From Verrucomicrobiota bacterium (GTDB taxonomy: Bacteria; Verrucomicrobiota; Verrucomicrobiia; Chthoniobacterales; UBA10450): a DNA stretch of 51,536 nucleotides. The stretch covers positions 1 to 51,536 of the forward strand of contig QHRO01000244.1 in NCBI GenBank assembly GCA_003220155.1. Direction: 5' to 3'. Every line of letters begins with the position of its first letter. Within the stretch, counting starts at the first letter, position 1. Below the pieces are notes generated by a model. That model saw only the letters and a list, made by a program, of their open reading frames with translations. It had not been told where the DNA came from and did not search any database. The position numbers and the translations under genes were made by a program. Shown piece by piece: positions 36,714-45,857 of this stretch.

Positions 36714-36757
36714 GCAAAACGCACGCCCGCGTCGGCCCGGCGTGCGTTTTGCTTTTC
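36714..36757 (+). terminator. Intrinsic terminator after skp
   Basis: Perfect 14-bp stem (GCAAAACGCACGCC, 36714-36727, and its complement at 36739-36752) with an 11-base loop, then TTTT. It ends the bamA-skp unit. A GTG at 36742 inside it is an unlikely start for the next gene. Confidence 0.9.
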
Positions 36758-36759
36758 CG

Positions 36760-37590
36760 ATGTCGCGTCTTTCCCCATTTCCTCTAGCGCGATCGACTTG
36801 GTGCACGGCACTCCTAACGAGTCTTGGGATCTTGATCTCCCAGGAGACAAGAGCGGCGAGCAATTGGCCGTCGAGTTTAACACGCGATCCGCGCGGCAGT
36901 TTCCCGGATCTGCGGCCAGCGCGGGCGGCCTATGTTTACGGGTGGAGCGGAATCACCGCCGCCACATCCGACGTTTATTTTCATCGCGGCGATCAGCGAA
37001 CATTTGTGCTGGAAGGGCGAGGGCGAACCGTAGGTCTGGCACGCGTCCTTTGGAGATTCGATCTGGACTATCGTTCGGCGGCAAATGCCGAGACCTTGCG
37101 CCCCCTCGACACGCATCAGGTCGAAACCGTGCGCGGCAAGCGGGTCGAAACCAATCTCAAGTTTTCTGATGAAGGAGTGAGCGGCAGCCGCGTTGAAAGC
37201 AATCACGCCACGCCCGTGGTGAAAGATTTTAACCTGGAAAATCTGTACGATCTCCACTCCGCGTTTCTCTATCTGCGTAGTCAACCGTTACGCGATCACA
37301 GCGTTTATCGCGTTACAGTTTATCCGGCGAATTCCGCCTACGTCGCCACTCTTACTGTTGTCGGCCGCGAACACCTGCGCGTGCGAGCGGGAAGTTACAA
37401 TGCGATCAAGCTCGATCTGAAGTTGCAACGCGTGAGTAAAAAGAACGAGCTCGAGCCACACCGGAAATTTAAACGCGCCACCATTTGGATTTCAGATGAC
37501 AACGATCGGTTGCTGCTGCGAATCGAGAGCCAGATTTTTGTCGGCACAGTCACCGCCGAACTGCAGTCGGTTCGCTTCGAAAACGGCTAG
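36760..37590 (+). CDS. DUF3108 domain periplasmic protein
   Basis: 276 residues from ATG 36760, chosen because the earlier in-frame GTG 36742 lies in the terminator stem. A signal-like start contains ARSTWCTALLTSLGILISQ. The DUF3108 body has YVYGWSGITAATSDVYFHRG, LDYRSAANAETLRPLDTHQV, AYVATLTVVGREHLRVRAGS and YNAIKLDLKLQRV, with a last block RATIWISDDNDRLLLRIESQ. The family is thought to act in the envelope; no enzyme activity is proven. It is convergent with the peptidoglycan-binding gene and overlaps it by 4 bases. Confidence 0.85.
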   Translation: MSRLSPFPLARSTWCTALLTSLGILISQETRAASNWPSSLTRDPRGSFPDLRPARAAYVYGWSGITAATSDVYFHRGDQRTFVLEGRGRTVGLARVLWRFDLDYRSAANAETLRPLDTHQVETVRGKRVETNLKFSDEGVSGSRVESNHATPVVKDFNLENLYDLHSAFLYLRSQPLRDHSVYRVTVYPANSAYVATLTVVGREHLRVRAGSYNAIKLDLKLQRVSKKNELEPHRKFKRATIWISDDNDRLLLRIESQIFVGTVTAELQSVRFENG

Positions 37591-38294
37591 TGAATCCATT
37601 CCCCCCGGACCGGGGGCTCATCCGACGGCGCAACCCGCCGATGCGGTATTTCCATCGGAGTGCGCCCGCGCTGACCCGGCAATAAGCCGAGCGCAGCCAG
37701 CGTATCCATGTCGAGCCGGCCATTGGGCGGAATACCCAGGCGCGACTGAAATGCGCGCACCGAAAATTCCAGATTCGCTCCAAAGACGCCGTCGCTTTCA
37801 CCTTTGTAAAACCCGCGCCGCCGCAGCAACGTTTGCGCGCCGAGAATAACGCGCTGCTGCAATTCCGGCGGCGCCATTTCGTACGGCGTGTTCCTGAAAA
37901 TACTCGTCGCCGATTCTGCTGGCGCCGGTTGCGCGCGATAAGTCTGAAGATCGCGTGGTGGCGACGTCGCGGGTGCGACTCTCTCAGTGGTATTGCCGGA
38001 ATCTTCCAAATTCCGTGGTTGCGGCGTAGGCGTCGTCGCTGCTGTCGAAGAAGCAGAGGCCCCGTGCAATGCGCGCAGCGTCTCTTGATCCAACTCTCCG
38101 GTTATTTGCAAACCGCTGCGAATTTGAAATCGCCGGATCGCGGCGATGGTATCGGCGTTTTTGTCCCCGTTGATTTCGCCAAAATAATAACCTTGTTCCT
38201 TTAGCTCTTCCTGCGCCTGCTGGACCGTGCTGTCCGCCAGCGCCAGCTGCGCCAATGCACTCGCCAAAATCGCCGTCCCAATTTTTCTTTTCAT
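37587..38294 (-). CDS. Secreted peptidoglycan-binding protein with two PG-binding domains
   Basis: 235 residues with a signal peptide (MKRKIGTAILASALAQLALA). Domain 1 (residues ~23-80) is a PG_binding_1 fold: VQQAQEELKEQGYYFGEING, then AIRRFQIRSGLQITGELDQE. A Pro/Ser/Thr linker follows. Domain 2 (~145-215) has AQTLLRRRGFYKGESDGVFG and VRAFQSRLGIPPNGRLDMD. It is the last gene of the UBact-prcB-prcA-amidase series, 37 bases after the amidase, and would bind the same wall substrate. The function beyond binding is unknown. Confidence 0.88.
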   Translation of the reverse strand: MKRKIGTAILASALAQLALADSTVQQAQEELKEQGYYFGEINGDKNADTIAAIRRFQIRSGLQITGELDQETLRALHGASASSTAATTPTPQPRNLEDSGNTTERVAPATSPPRDLQTYRAQPAPAESATSIFRNTPYEMAPPELQQRVILGAQTLLRRRGFYKGESDGVFGANLEFSVRAFQSRLGIPPNGRLDMDTLAALGLLPGQRGRTPMEIPHRRVAPSDEPPVRGEWIH

Positions 38295-38331
38295 CGCTGC
38301 GGGCAGTTTGACGCCTTGTCTACCTTCTTAT

Positions 38332-39123
38332 TCATGGACTCGCTCCGTCAAGATCGTCACCGGATGCTTTGATCGTGTCGCGATATTTCAAAATGCCATC
38401 GCTTATCGCCACCGCCAGTTGCTCGCGATAGTTTGCGTTCGCCAATTTCCCGATCTCATTTTTGTTGGTTAGAAAGCCGCCTTCCACGAGCACCGCGGGA
38501 TGGCGCACATTTGCCAGCACATAAAACTGCTCTGCTTTCGTTCCGCGATTAATTGCCTGCGTGTGTGTCACCAGTTGCTGCTGAACAGATTGGGCCAGGC
38601 TCTGACTTTCCACATTCGGCTGAATGTTGGCGATCTTTTGCAGAAATGGCAGCCAACTTGCAATCGTCGGAATGCCAGTGCTTTGTTGCGCAGCAAAGTA
38701 GGTCTCAATTCCGCTGACGTCCGGCCGCAGTCCCTCATCAAAATGAATGCTCACCACGATGGCATTGTTGGCGCGATTGATCAGCTGTGCCCGCTCGCTT
38801 AACGAAACATAGGAATCTCCCGTACGCGTCAGCAATGTCGAGATGCCTTGAGCACCCAGAAGGCGAGCGACTCGCTGGGCCACATCAAATGTCAGATCTT
38901 TCTCCAAAACATTGTCCGCCATCGCTCCCGAATCCTGCCCGCCATGACCGGGATCGAGTATCACCAATGTGAACGGCTCGGCCTTTTTATGATGTGGGAG
39001 TGTGGTGTGCGGCAATAGTGGTTCCCGCGTCCACATCAACGCCAAAAACGACAACGCCATTAAGACGAGACCAAGCCAGGCAATTAAATCACTGGCCGGC
39101 TCGGCGAGACGGAAACGGCCCAT
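38332..39123 (-). CDS. N-acetylmuramoyl-L-alanine amidase (Amidase_3)
   Basis: Zinc hydrolase that cleaves the amide between muramic acid and the stem peptide in the periplasm. The 263-residue product has an N-terminal membrane anchor (LIAWLGLVLMALSFLALMW) and the Amidase_3 domain: LVILDPGHGGQDSGA (first zinc His), the following Glu segment VLEKDLTFDVA, STLLTRTGDSYVSLSERAQL, IVVSIHFDEG (second His region) and the late catalytic glutamate in AVLVEGGFLTN. It starts one base after the prcA stop, so it is translated from the proteasome transcript. AmiC-type fusion domains are absent. Confidence 0.93.
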   Translation of the reverse strand: MGRFRLAEPASDLIAWLGLVLMALSFLALMWTREPLLPHTTLPHHKKAEPFTLVILDPGHGGQDSGAMADNVLEKDLTFDVAQRVARLLGAQGISTLLTRTGDSYVSLSERAQLINRANNAIVVSIHFDEGLRPDVSGIETYFAAQQSTGIPTIASWLPFLQKIANIQPNVESQSLAQSVQQQLVTHTQAINRGTKAEQFYVLANVRHPAVLVEGGFLTNKNEIGKLANANYREQLAVAISDGILKYRDTIKASGDDLDGASP

Positions 39124-39124
39124 T

Positions 39125-39880
39125 CTATTTTGCGATCAAGGGCGCCAGCTCGCTCGCTTCCACAGCGCGATATCGCACCGCCCGATTGCTGTTGCGCTCC
39201 AACACCGCCGCCGAAATTGTCCCACTGCCAACTCGCTCCCTCCATTGCCGCCGAATGTCATCCTCTGCCGGCATCGCTTCGTCGGTTTTAGATTGGCCAA
39301 CCGTCCAGGTGTCGAGCGCGAGTTCGAGAGTCGCCGATAGATCCTTGCCGCTTTGAAATCGTTTCCTCAGAAATTCTGCCATTTGCTCGGCCGATTTTTT
39401 GCTCGCAGCCAGAACAGCAAAAGGCGTATTGCCTCCATTACTTGGGTGCAGATTGATGGCGCCGTCGTATTCCACTTCCAGAAAGAGGTCGTCGGCCAGG
39501 GAGGTTCCGATTTCGACAAAAAGCAAGCGGGCCAGGAAGGGTGCGCCGTAAATTTGCTCGAAGGCGTTTTTCATCACCGGACTTAACGAGTAATAGGCCA
39601 GGCGACGCAGTGAAACATCCGCCACCGAGCGGGTAAATCCTTCACTGCTGGCAAGCTCAATCGCAGCCATGCGCAGACGCTCGATGTCGCCCGGATGCCC
39701 AATAGCACCGAGCGCAATCCGATCGTAAATCTCGAAAAGCTTTTGCTGCCCCACCGTCAGGAGCAAGATCCCCTCTGAATAACCAAGCGCGACGACTGGA
39801 CTGCCGGTGGCCAGCTGCATTTCGATGTAATCGCGACGCGTGGCGACTGCTTCCACCCAACGATACGGCTCTTCGATCAT
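39125..39880 (-). CDS. prcA: 20S proteasome alpha-subunit-like protein
   Basis: Structural ring subunit gating entry to the proteolytic chamber. The 251-residue product has the N-terminal VEAVATRRDYIEMQLATGSP, the fold core VVALGYSEGILLLTVGQQKL with FEIYDRIALGAIGHPGDIER, and the second half YGAPFLARLLFVEIGTSLAD and DLFLEVEYDGA. It lacks the N-terminal threonine of beta subunits, as alpha subunits do. The gene overlaps prcB by 4 bases (ATGA), so the two subunits are coupled. It resembles the proteasomes of UBact-bearing Gram-negatives more than those of actinobacteria. The chaperone or unfoldase is not nearby. Confidence 0.9.
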   Translation of the reverse strand: MIEEPYRWVEAVATRRDYIEMQLATGSPVVALGYSEGILLLTVGQQKLFEIYDRIALGAIGHPGDIERLRMAAIELASSEGFTRSVADVSLRRLAYYSLSPVMKNAFEQIYGAPFLARLLFVEIGTSLADDLFLEVEYDGAINLHPSNGGNTPFAVLAASKKSAEQMAEFLRKRFQSGKDLSATLELALDTWTVGQSKTDEAMPAEDDIRRQWRERVGSGTISAAVLERNSNRAVRYRAVEASELAPLIAK

Positions 39881-40680
39881 GCGACGCGTTTGTGAAATAA
39901 CTCCGCAATCTTTTCTTCCGGCAGGGTGAGAATCCCATCAGCCGACACGATTTTCATTACCGGAAAAATTTTCGCGTGGCGATCGATCCCGCCCGTGGCG
40001 GTATCCGCTTCCGACGCGGTATCGAGTGCACGCAAGGCAACCACGACGGCCTCATCCTGGTCGATTTTTTGCAGCGGCTTTTTGCCCCAGGTATTTTCGT
40101 AATATAAAATTCCCCGCACCGCCGGCGAGCCCGAGCCGGTCGCGGCAAAATCGGTCGCTTCGAACTGCGCCCCCATGGCATCGTAAAAATAAAGGCGCGC
40201 CGAAGGCGATACTTTGACATCGTAAGTCGCGAAAATCGGGACGACGATCCCAACTCCCTGAAGGGCAAAGCCGAAGTTGTCGCGCAATAATTTCGAAAGC
40301 GCTCGCACTTTGCCGTCCACGCTCATTTCCTGTAATTGCGTCCGGCGAAAAAACTGAAACGAGTGTTCGAGCACGCGCGCCATTTCCCAAGCCGTGGCAG
40401 GCACGCCCGCGATCGCCATAATAGAACGCCGGTCGATCTCCAGCACCTTATCGGCTCGATCGTAAACAACAGTGTTTCCGGAAGTCGCCCGCCGGTCGCC
40501 CGCGACCAGCACACCATCGGAAAATTTGAAGGCCAAAATTGTAGTTGATTCCGTCGGCGTAATTTCAGCGCGCTTATTCATCGGACCAATCTGAGCAGCG
40601 GGCCCGAGTAAACCCTGGCGCCGGAGCAAGGAGGGAAAATCACTGCTCGCTCCGAAATCGAGCGCCTCTTTGCCGTCCAT
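39877..40680 (-). CDS. prcB: 20S proteasome beta subunit
   Basis: Proteolytic ring subunit with N-terminal threonine chemistry. The 267-residue precursor has a propeptide of about 45 residues, ending PTES, before the active site TTILAFKFSDGVLVAG; Thr46 would become Thr1. The partner residues are in place: Asp in AGDRRATSGNTV and Lys in YDRADKVLEID, with the GSGSPAVRGILYYE block further on. The start codon follows the UBact stop with no gap. It forms the chamber with PrcA and would degrade UBact-tagged proteins. Confidence 0.94.
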   Translation of the reverse strand: MDGKEALDFGASSDFPSLLRRQGLLGPAAQIGPMNKRAEITPTESTTILAFKFSDGVLVAGDRRATSGNTVVYDRADKVLEIDRRSIMAIAGVPATAWEMARVLEHSFQFFRRTQLQEMSVDGKVRALSKLLRDNFGFALQGVGIVVPIFATYDVKVSPSARLYFYDAMGAQFEATDFAATGSGSPAVRGILYYENTWGKKPLQKIDQDEAVVVALRALDTASEADTATGGIDRHAKIFPVMKIVSADGILTLPEEKIAELFHKRVA

Positions 40681-40857
40681 TTATTGGCCGGTGCGCTGCC
40701 GGTAACGCTTCGATTGATTCGGATCTACCTTGCGCATCTTTTTTAGCAAATCCTTCGTGTCCGGCCGCGAAATATCGGGTGAACGCGGCCCACCGCCGTC
40801 ACCCTGTTTCGGCCCCCACGGCACCGGTTCGACCGGCTTCTGAATGCGTTCTGGCAT
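40681..40857 (-). CDS. ubact: UBact, Pup-like protein modifier
   Basis: A small tag attached to proteins for proteasomal degradation, the Gram-negative counterpart of Pup. The 58-residue product starts MPERIQKPVEPVPWGPKQGD, continues with GGGPRSPDISRPDTKDLLKK, and ends VDPNQSKRYRQRTGQ. The C-terminal Gln would need deamidation before ligation, as in many Pup proteins. It has no cysteines or tryptophan-rich core and is predicted disordered. ATG 40857 gives the family start MPER; an in-frame ATG at 40881 has a better ribosome site and would add eight residues. It heads the operon before prcB, a position known for UBact. Confidence 0.92.
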   Translation of the reverse strand: MPERIQKPVEPVPWGPKQGDGGGPRSPDISRPDTKDLLKKMRKVDPNQSKRYRQRTGQ

Positions 40858-40980
40858 CAAGAAAAAGGTACGGGAAATCATCAGAACCGCAACCTCTCCC
40901 GGTGACTTTCGGTTCGGCTGTCCCTGTACAAATCGCGCGCGTGCTTGCCAGCCTTCGCACCAGATGTCAGAATTTCTGAA

Positions 40981-41448
40981 ATGAAATTTTTCGCTGCCTG
41001 CGCGATCTTGCTACTCGTGGTCGCCGGCGCATTGGCTCAACCGCCGCAGGGTTCCCCATCGCCCGACGAAATTGCCGGGCTGGAAAAAAAGATCGATCAG
41101 ATCAACACCAAGATCGACGCGCTTTCCCAGCAGATTTTGAAGCTGGAACAGCAGATTTCCCGTCCGGGAATGATGATTGGCGAGCCGACGCCAGGGCCGG
41201 TTCCTAATGCTGCGACATCGACGAACGAAACCCCGCATCCGGCAGCGAGCAATGGTAATACTCACGTCGTGGCCCGCGGCGAGACGCTCACTTCCATTGC
41301 CAAACAACACAAGGTCGGCGTGGAAGAGCTTCAAAAATTTAATCATATTGAAGACGGCCGAAAATTGCAGGCTGGGCAAACAATCATGATCCCCGCGCCC
41401 TCTGCCAGCCCGGCGGCGAGCGCGTCACCTTCGCCGACAGCGGAATAA
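40981..41448 (+). CDS. LysM domain protein with coiled coil
   Basis: 155 residues from ATG 40981 (an in-frame ATG at 40945 gives 12 more, but no signal). Signal peptide MKFFAACAILLLVVAGALA. Then a coiled coil (IAGLEKKIDQINTKIDALS, then LKLEQQISRPG), a Pro/Ser linker, one LysM domain (THVVARGETLTSIAKQHKVG, LQKFNHIEDGRKLQAGQTI) and a PSASP tail. It probably binds peptidoglycan. It is divergent from UBact and four bases before the GYF gene, so they are likely co-transcribed. Confidence 0.88.
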   Translation: MKFFAACAILLLVVAGALAQPPQGSPSPDEIAGLEKKIDQINTKIDALSQQILKLEQQISRPGMMIGEPTPGPVPNAATSTNETPHPAASNGNTHVVARGETLTSIAKQHKVGVEELQKFNHIEDGRKLQAGQTIMIPAPSASPAASASPSPTAE

Positions 41449-42108: not shown

Positions 42109-42190
42109 GTCATGTCGAGCGAAAGTCGAGACATCTCTTGCTATTCCTTTTCCAAGAAGTCAGAGATTCCTCGACTGCGCTCGGAATGAC
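42109..42190. repeat. Family A palindrome, copy 6
   Basis: GTCATGTCGAGCGAAAGTCGA to GACTGCGCTCGGAATGAC, with a CTATTCCTTTTCCAAGAAG centre. It is the plain form without the 14-bp module. The gap 41992-42365 contains this element and a family I inverted repeat (42271-42354), and no gene. Confidence 0.85.
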
Positions 42191-42270
42191 AAAAGGCTGT
42201 TCACGCGAGGTAAATCTGCTTTGTGGGGCGGTTTCACCGTGCCGGTCAGACGCCGCATCTTTCAAATTCT

Positions 42271-45753: not shown

Positions 45754-45848
45754 GTCATGTCGAGCGAAGTCGAGACATCTCTTACTATTTCGCTGATCCT
45801 GCTGGAGTCGACTAAAACAAGAGATTCCTCCACTTGGGTCGGAATGAC
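45754..45848. repeat. Family A palindrome, copy 7
   Basis: GTCATGTCGAGCGAAGTCGA at the left and CCACTTGGGTCGGAATGAC at the right, with a centre like that of copy 6. It lies between two minus-strand genes, ending 10 bases before the stop of the MBL gene. Confidence 0.85.
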
Positions 45849-45857
45849 AAAAGGACT

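Follow-up and report, generated by a model that had tools for sequence, protein, structure and literature searches.

Genes for a UBact tag and a 20S proteasome core probably share one operon with two cell-wall genes in Chthoniobacterales

Two sources describe the gene order of Pup-type loci as rigidly conserved (PMC3511204) and Pup as invariably adjoining a PafA gene (PMC2588565). In the actinobacterial Pup locus (mpa/arc, dop, pup, prcB, prcA, pafA), the tag gene stands directly before prcB-prcA. For Gram-negative bacteria, a UBact system was reportedly described by Lehmann et al. in 2017. Here, we analyzed a stretch of 51,536 nucleotides (the window), which is contig C284 of the 3.35 Mb, 354-contig genome of a Chthoniobacterales relative (Verrucomicrobiota), and found that the genes for a UBact tag and a 20S proteasome are followed by two genes for cell-wall proteins. 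The position of the tag gene directly before prcB-prcA and the G[QE] C-terminus of the tag are as in the actinobacterial system, and a homologous depupylase, a PafA-like ligase and an Mpa/ARC-like ATPase are encoded in the genome. Unlike the actinobacterial locus, however, dop, mpa and pafA are off-locus here, and two wall genes lie after prcA. With the UBact system of Gram-negative bacteria, the locus shares the UBact family (PF20513/NF033388) in company with prcB-prcA. No publication on a combined proteasome-wall gene arrangement was found in the open literature; most subscription papers, including Lehmann 2017, lie outside that search.

We assign a probability of about 0.7 to the reading that these genes form one unit driven by a sigma-70-like promoter, that the Pup-type locus was split three ways, and that the proteasome core and the envelope pair are facultatively co-expressed. 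The five genes occupy positions 40857 to 37587 of the minus strand in a single run with gaps of 0, -4, 1 and 37 bases, exactly as an earlier reading of the letters, the preliminary description, had placed them, and the C-terminus RTGQ that it gave for UBact was also correct:

40681..40857, minus strand: UBact tag, 58 amino acids, C-terminus RTGQ (PF20513, 81 bits; NF033388, 83.7 bits)
39877..40680, minus strand: prcB, 20S beta subunit with propeptide (PF00227, 98 bits)
39125..39880, minus strand: prcA, divergent 20S alpha subunit, overlapping prcB by 4 bases (TIGR03691, 71 bits; PDB PrcA)
38332..39123, minus strand: Amidase_3 N-acetylmuramoyl-L-alanine amidase with an N-terminal hydrophobic anchor (PF01520, 166 bits)
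37587..38294, minus strand: peptidoglycan-binding (PGB) protein, predicted to be secreted, with two PG_binding_1 domains (PF01471, 98.6 bits, two stretches)
40865..40892, minus strand: promoter-like TTGCGG-N16-TACCTT upstream of UBact (motif TTGC-N16-22-TAnnnT)

Chance adjacency of the five genes was ruled out by the recurrence of the prcA-amidase order in 22/29 genera.

UBact above the cut-off was detected in 111/213 genomes of the order. Besides the window's own genome, the UBact neighbourhoods of 109 out of the remaining 110 genomes were scored by profile, together with five loci of f9, a family of the same class that we take to be Methylacidiphilum-like, and loci cut at contig ends were excluded junction by junction. 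L086 (G445), which has a weak UBact match and in which no genes were found, was excluded, and G567, with UBact matches at contig ends, was left unscored. The UBact-prcB junction was kept in 108/109 loci and prcB-prcA in 99/105. The amidase gene was located within 400 bp of prcA in 76/95 scorable loci, with a very short median gap of 13 bp over these 76, and the amidase-PGB junction was kept in 73/74 loci. The PGB gene is the steadier partner of prcA. It was found within 1.3 kb of prcA, with or without the amidase gene, in 86/94 loci and 26/29 genera, and it follows prcA without the amidase gene in f84 (overlapping prcA by 4 bases), genera g225 and g226 of f87, g6 of f4, and G392 of f83. Conserved synteny in relatives was therefore borne out; its absence would have counted against an operon. 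Two flanking genes of the window were included in the comparison:

40981..41448, plus strand: divergent LysM gene, likely ATG at 40981 (PF01476, 47 bits)
36742..37590, plus strand: convergent DUF3108 gene, tail-to-tail with the PGB gene with a 4-base overlap (PF11306, 91.7 bits)

The LysM-UBact junction was kept in 80/105 loci, PGB-DUF3108 in 66/79 and DUF3108-OmpH in 57/64. The window's own family, f1, conserves almost all of this region, and the informative comparison is therefore that outside f1. There, prcA and the PGB gene stayed together in 12/15 genera and prcA and the amidase gene in 8/15, with 5/15 for LysM-UBact, 6/12 for PGB-DUF3108 and 0/6 for DUF3108-OmpH.

Alignment of the sequences upstream of UBact revealed two boxes, CTTGC..T and a TA-rich one, ahead of ATGCC. 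The motif TTGC-N16-22-TAnnnT was present within 100 nucleotides of the UBact start in 96/102 loci of the order, as compared with 5% in shuffled sequences (8/110 loci were left out for too little upstream sequence or no exact UBact match). At the inner junctions, the same motif was found before prcB in 0/103, prcA in 0/94, the amidase gene in 6/71 and the PGB gene in 0/78 loci. When prcA and the amidase gene of 70 complete operons were scanned in 100-nucleotide bins, no strongly recurrent inner site was detected, and one amidase bin gave 4/70. A conserved separate promoter before the amidase gene was thus not found, the 6/71 junctions with the motif being all from genus g209 in the 70-locus scan. 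Some observations weigh against the single unit. The 96/102 is partly in-sample, the motif having first been noticed in f1 and a part of f83; the top bin of the inner scan, at the prcA end, held 6/70 sites (expected 1.2), all of them in g209; no minus-strand site upstream of UBact was listed when the window was scanned for generic promoters, the TTGCGG/TACCTT copy there being weak; and conservation within f1 extends to the flanking junctions, so that this family alone proves little. On the other hand, 14/15 loci were positive in f84, f87 and f4, the families not used in spotting the motif. The short gaps, the synteny and the single conserved promoter motif together support the earlier proposal of one operon that includes the wall genes, and the assignment of UBact-prcB-prcA-amidase-PGB to one operon is well supported at the level of sequence. 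The five genes would then be transcribed together from the conserved sigma-70-like promoter before UBact.

Natural deletions are consistent with this arrangement. In G409 (f83), neither UBact nor PF03136 was found in the genome, UBact-prcB-prcA is deleted from the locus, and LysM and GYF genes directly face amidase-PGB. The UBact promoter and ATGCCAGAG are retained there, and a leader of 24 codons results, with its stop codon overlapping the start of the amidase gene. With the promoter and the first UBact codons retained before the wall genes, amidase-PGB is probably transcribed from the UBact promoter, and the pair has been maintained in the absence of the proteasome. G390 has lost UBact, prcBA and the amidase gene, and its PGB gene stands between LysM and DUF3108. 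The amidase gene was lost in place in G516 and G519, where prcA and the PGB gene are separated by only 113 and 137 bp. In genus g219, the amidase and PGB genes are located apart from the proteasome genes; they are still a pair in G423 and G425, and in G426 and G427 they are found on two different contigs. A gene for a BrkB-family membrane protein (PF03631) was observed after prcA in both g219 copies scanned (L106, 5516-6460, minus strand; L143, 5287-6186, plus strand). In g218, the amidase and PGB genes are apart from UBact-prcB, and the PGB gene is beside DUF3108 in 4/5 copies examined. Since either half survives alone in several lineages, the pairing of proteasome and wall genes, as judged from these genomes, appears to be facultative. 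Deletions in both directions provide ready tests of a link between proteolysis and wall remodelling.

The preliminary description had noted that the ligase, depupylase and unfoldase genes lie outside the window, and this was confirmed. No PafA/Dop homologue or ATPase is encoded in the window, and whole-genome searches placed all of them on other contigs. Two PF03136 genes were found, on C61 and C334. The C61 protein is Dop (491.7 bits against a cut-off of 492.3), and that on C334 is a PafA-like paralogue, for which the name PafA is only inferred because its PafA and Dop scores are close (310 bits, cut-off 551, and 298 bits). An Mpa/ARC-like ATPase is encoded on C61 (440 bits, under the cut-off of 504.75); relatives encode its counterpart next to dop. 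With homologues of Dop and PafA (by this inferred identity) and an Mpa/ARC-like ATPase in the genome, the Pup-type pathway looks complete, and an incomplete pathway was judged unlikely as candidates for the genes absent from the window were found elsewhere. UBact, PrcB and PrcA would be the tag and core of this pathway, completed by the remote dop, mpa-like and pafA-like genes. The order dop-tag-prcB-prcA-pafA is not kept, and tag-prcB-prcA alone stay together; this concerns organisation and not a required activity. Across the order, PF03136 was detected in 110/111 UBact genomes, and in 11 genomes without a UBact match. The exception, G392 (L073), is rated 96% complete and has UBact, prcB, prcA and the PGB gene; the PF03136 ligase/depupylase was not found anywhere in its genome. 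Unlike the invariable adjacency given in PMC2588565, a ligase-family gene was present within the fetched UBact neighbourhood at just 4/110 loci of the order. The f9 loci have the same UBact-prcB-prcA order and homologous proteins, but carry the full mpa-dop-UBact-prcB-prcA-pafA cluster in 5/5 loci, with no amidase or PGB gene. Most simply, a locus of this usual type was split into three in Chthoniobacterales, and the tag-protease piece was placed under one promoter with two envelope genes, which were either already present or newly gained; this order of events we infer. Where a rigid locus type has been described, a large order of uncultured soil bacteria would thus have three separate units that together make up a complete-looking pathway, with the protease core apparently wired to wall genes.

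In nine dop neighbourhoods of other genomes of the order, mpa adjoins dop in five, is 0.5-4.4 kb apart in three and was not seen in one. In the window's genome, about 7 kb of other genes lie between dop and the mpa-like gene (L102, 7416-18044), which are closer or adjacent in most other genera examined. The mycobacterial Mpa ends in GQYL. The Mpa/ARC-like ATPase on C61 has a C-terminus without GQYL, and the ATPases of the group (L102, 16287-18044; L346-L354; L097-L101) end in VI, VV or II. Docking of the ATPase to the 20S core may differ from that in mycobacteria.

To the preliminary description, the combination of genes suggested a tie between tagged proteolysis and wall turnover or division. 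In this form, UBact-tagged proteolysis and wall hydrolysis would belong to one programme, e.g. of growth arrest or division, and selection would hold the genes together; we consider it doubtful, and the proposed tie is at best partly supported. It is true that, outside f1, prcA and the PGB gene stayed together more often than the genes at neighbouring junctions. At a strict threshold (E 1e-70 or better), the amidase orthologue, A2, was found in 98/213 genomes of the order; UBact was present in 89 of these, and 93 genomes had neither. These are raw genome counts, confounded by shared ancestry. The next-best amidases in a 30-genome sample scored at most 222 bits, against at least 254 bits for the orthologue set. 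In addition, strict wall-gene matches among 188 sampled genomes of the class came from Chthoniobacterales only (11 PGB, 8 amidase). However, the orthologue was absent from 22/111 UBact genomes, in part owing to contig ends or disrupted frames, and the amidase gene is absent behind prcA in 19/95 scorable loci. Conversely, nine genomes with the orthologue had no UBact match: prcA lies beside the amidase gene near a contig end in G490, G493, G545 and G553, the locus is cut by a contig end in G543, and G391, G409, G419 and G422 kept the amidase with UBact not found in the genome. Obligate co-occurrence was ruled out by genomes holding one without the other. The lineages described above speak in the same direction: G409 and G390 lost UBact-prcBA yet keep wall genes, G516 and G519 lost the amidase gene and kept prcA and the PGB gene, the wall genes of g218 and g219 lie elsewhere, with the BrkB-like gene in the slot in g219, and the f9 loci are without wall genes. 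Furthermore, the proteins are in different compartments. The tag and proteasome are cytosolic, and the amidase and PGB protein, with anchor or export segments, are predicted to act outside the membrane; therefore, any link should be indirect, and co-expression is the likeliest. The connection between the halves would then be facultative co-expression, which is likely for the proteasome core and wall genes from the arrangement of the loci, and mechanistic coupling is unproven. A bolder extension, in which the UBact-20S core and a dedicated amidase/PGB pair became a regulatory unit after the three-way split, with cytosolic proteolysis and wall cutting outside switched together, e.g. at entry into growth arrest, is tentative and on balance unlikely.

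Two further explanations require no such programme. Unrelated genes might have settled by lineage in a replaceable slot behind prcA under a steady promoter, wall genes being the commonest. The occupants do vary (pafA in f9, amidase and PGB genes in most loci, the PGB gene alone in f84, in g6 of f4 and in g225/g226 of f87, and BrkB in g219), but the amidases look to have been inherited as a single group. In a tree of 77 amidases, one clade of operonic and moved copies was not rejected (p-AU 0.29). Within f1, f83 and f4, this points to a single gain with later losses, and the slot explanation seems to us possible at best. The amidase pair of g228 in f87 is on a long branch, and its best matches outside the genus are other operonic amidases; an independent recruitment could be the case for this pair, judging from the tree. 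Plain inheritance of a neighbourhood, in which an envelope cluster (BamA, OmpH, DUF3108, PGB, amidase, LysM) encloses the proteasome genes and any shared transcription is of no consequence, agrees with the conservation of nearly the whole region inside f1 and with the wall genes without proteasome genes in f83. We regard it as improbable in view of the 13 bp median gap, the one conserved promoter, and the UBact promoter and start codon retained in G409 for amidase-PGB alone. The single facultative operon is therefore preferred.

The protein assignments underlying this reading were as follows. UBact exceeds the PF20513 cut-off of 27.8 bits and has the C-terminal G[QE] of the family. Its start, MPER, is conserved, with 23 invariant columns among eight aligned sequences, and the length is therefore 58 amino acids and not the 66 from an upstream ATG. 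Among the best 80 of 327 UBact relatives, the titles name Verrucomicrobia(ota), Spartobacteria, Chthoniobacterales, Chthoniobacteraceae and Candidatus Udaeobacter. A second UBact copy, ending in RSGQ, was observed in G449 (L088, C227, 16653-16781), in addition to the normal UBact-prcBA locus of that genome; beside the second copy, prcB was not found. PrcB scored 170 bits with TIGR03690, under its cut-off of 191.9, and its catalytic T1, D17 and K33 were read directly in the sequence, which identifies a 20S beta subunit. A regular expression found the catalytic pattern in 108/113 PrcB copies, and in three of the other five the residues are visible by eye. PrcA had no match to the Pfam Proteasome family, and its TIGR03691 score is below the 139-bit cut-off, but it matched M. 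tuberculosis PrcA (PDB) at 4e-9 by phmmer and 2.5e-18 with a nine-row profile. By these matches PrcA is assigned as a 20S alpha subunit, and a misnamed gene was ruled out; weak FKBP and PE-PPE matches were taken as noise.

The nearest solved relative of the amidase is 5emi (1.6e-31). H60, E74, H127 and E214, which we take to be the metal/catalytic residues, are invariant in 14 aligned sequences, and a short cytosolic head is followed by one hydrophobic segment, so that the protein is a predicted membrane-anchored peptidoglycan amidase. The N-terminus of the PGB protein was judged signal-like by eye. In the cytosolic head of some f83 amidases (L345, L179), QLDLF or QLRLPL was observed, which to our eyes resembles a sliding-clamp binding motif and may be chance. 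A dispersed repeat starting TGTCATGTCGAGCGAAGTCGAGACATCTC occurs in the window at about 16200, at 42112-42196 and at 45757-45854, and also in L102 and L105. The peptide HPERSASEVEGSRD, which looks related to the TGTCATGTCGAGCGAAGTCGAGACATCTC repeat, sits within the Mpa-like open reading frame of the same genome.

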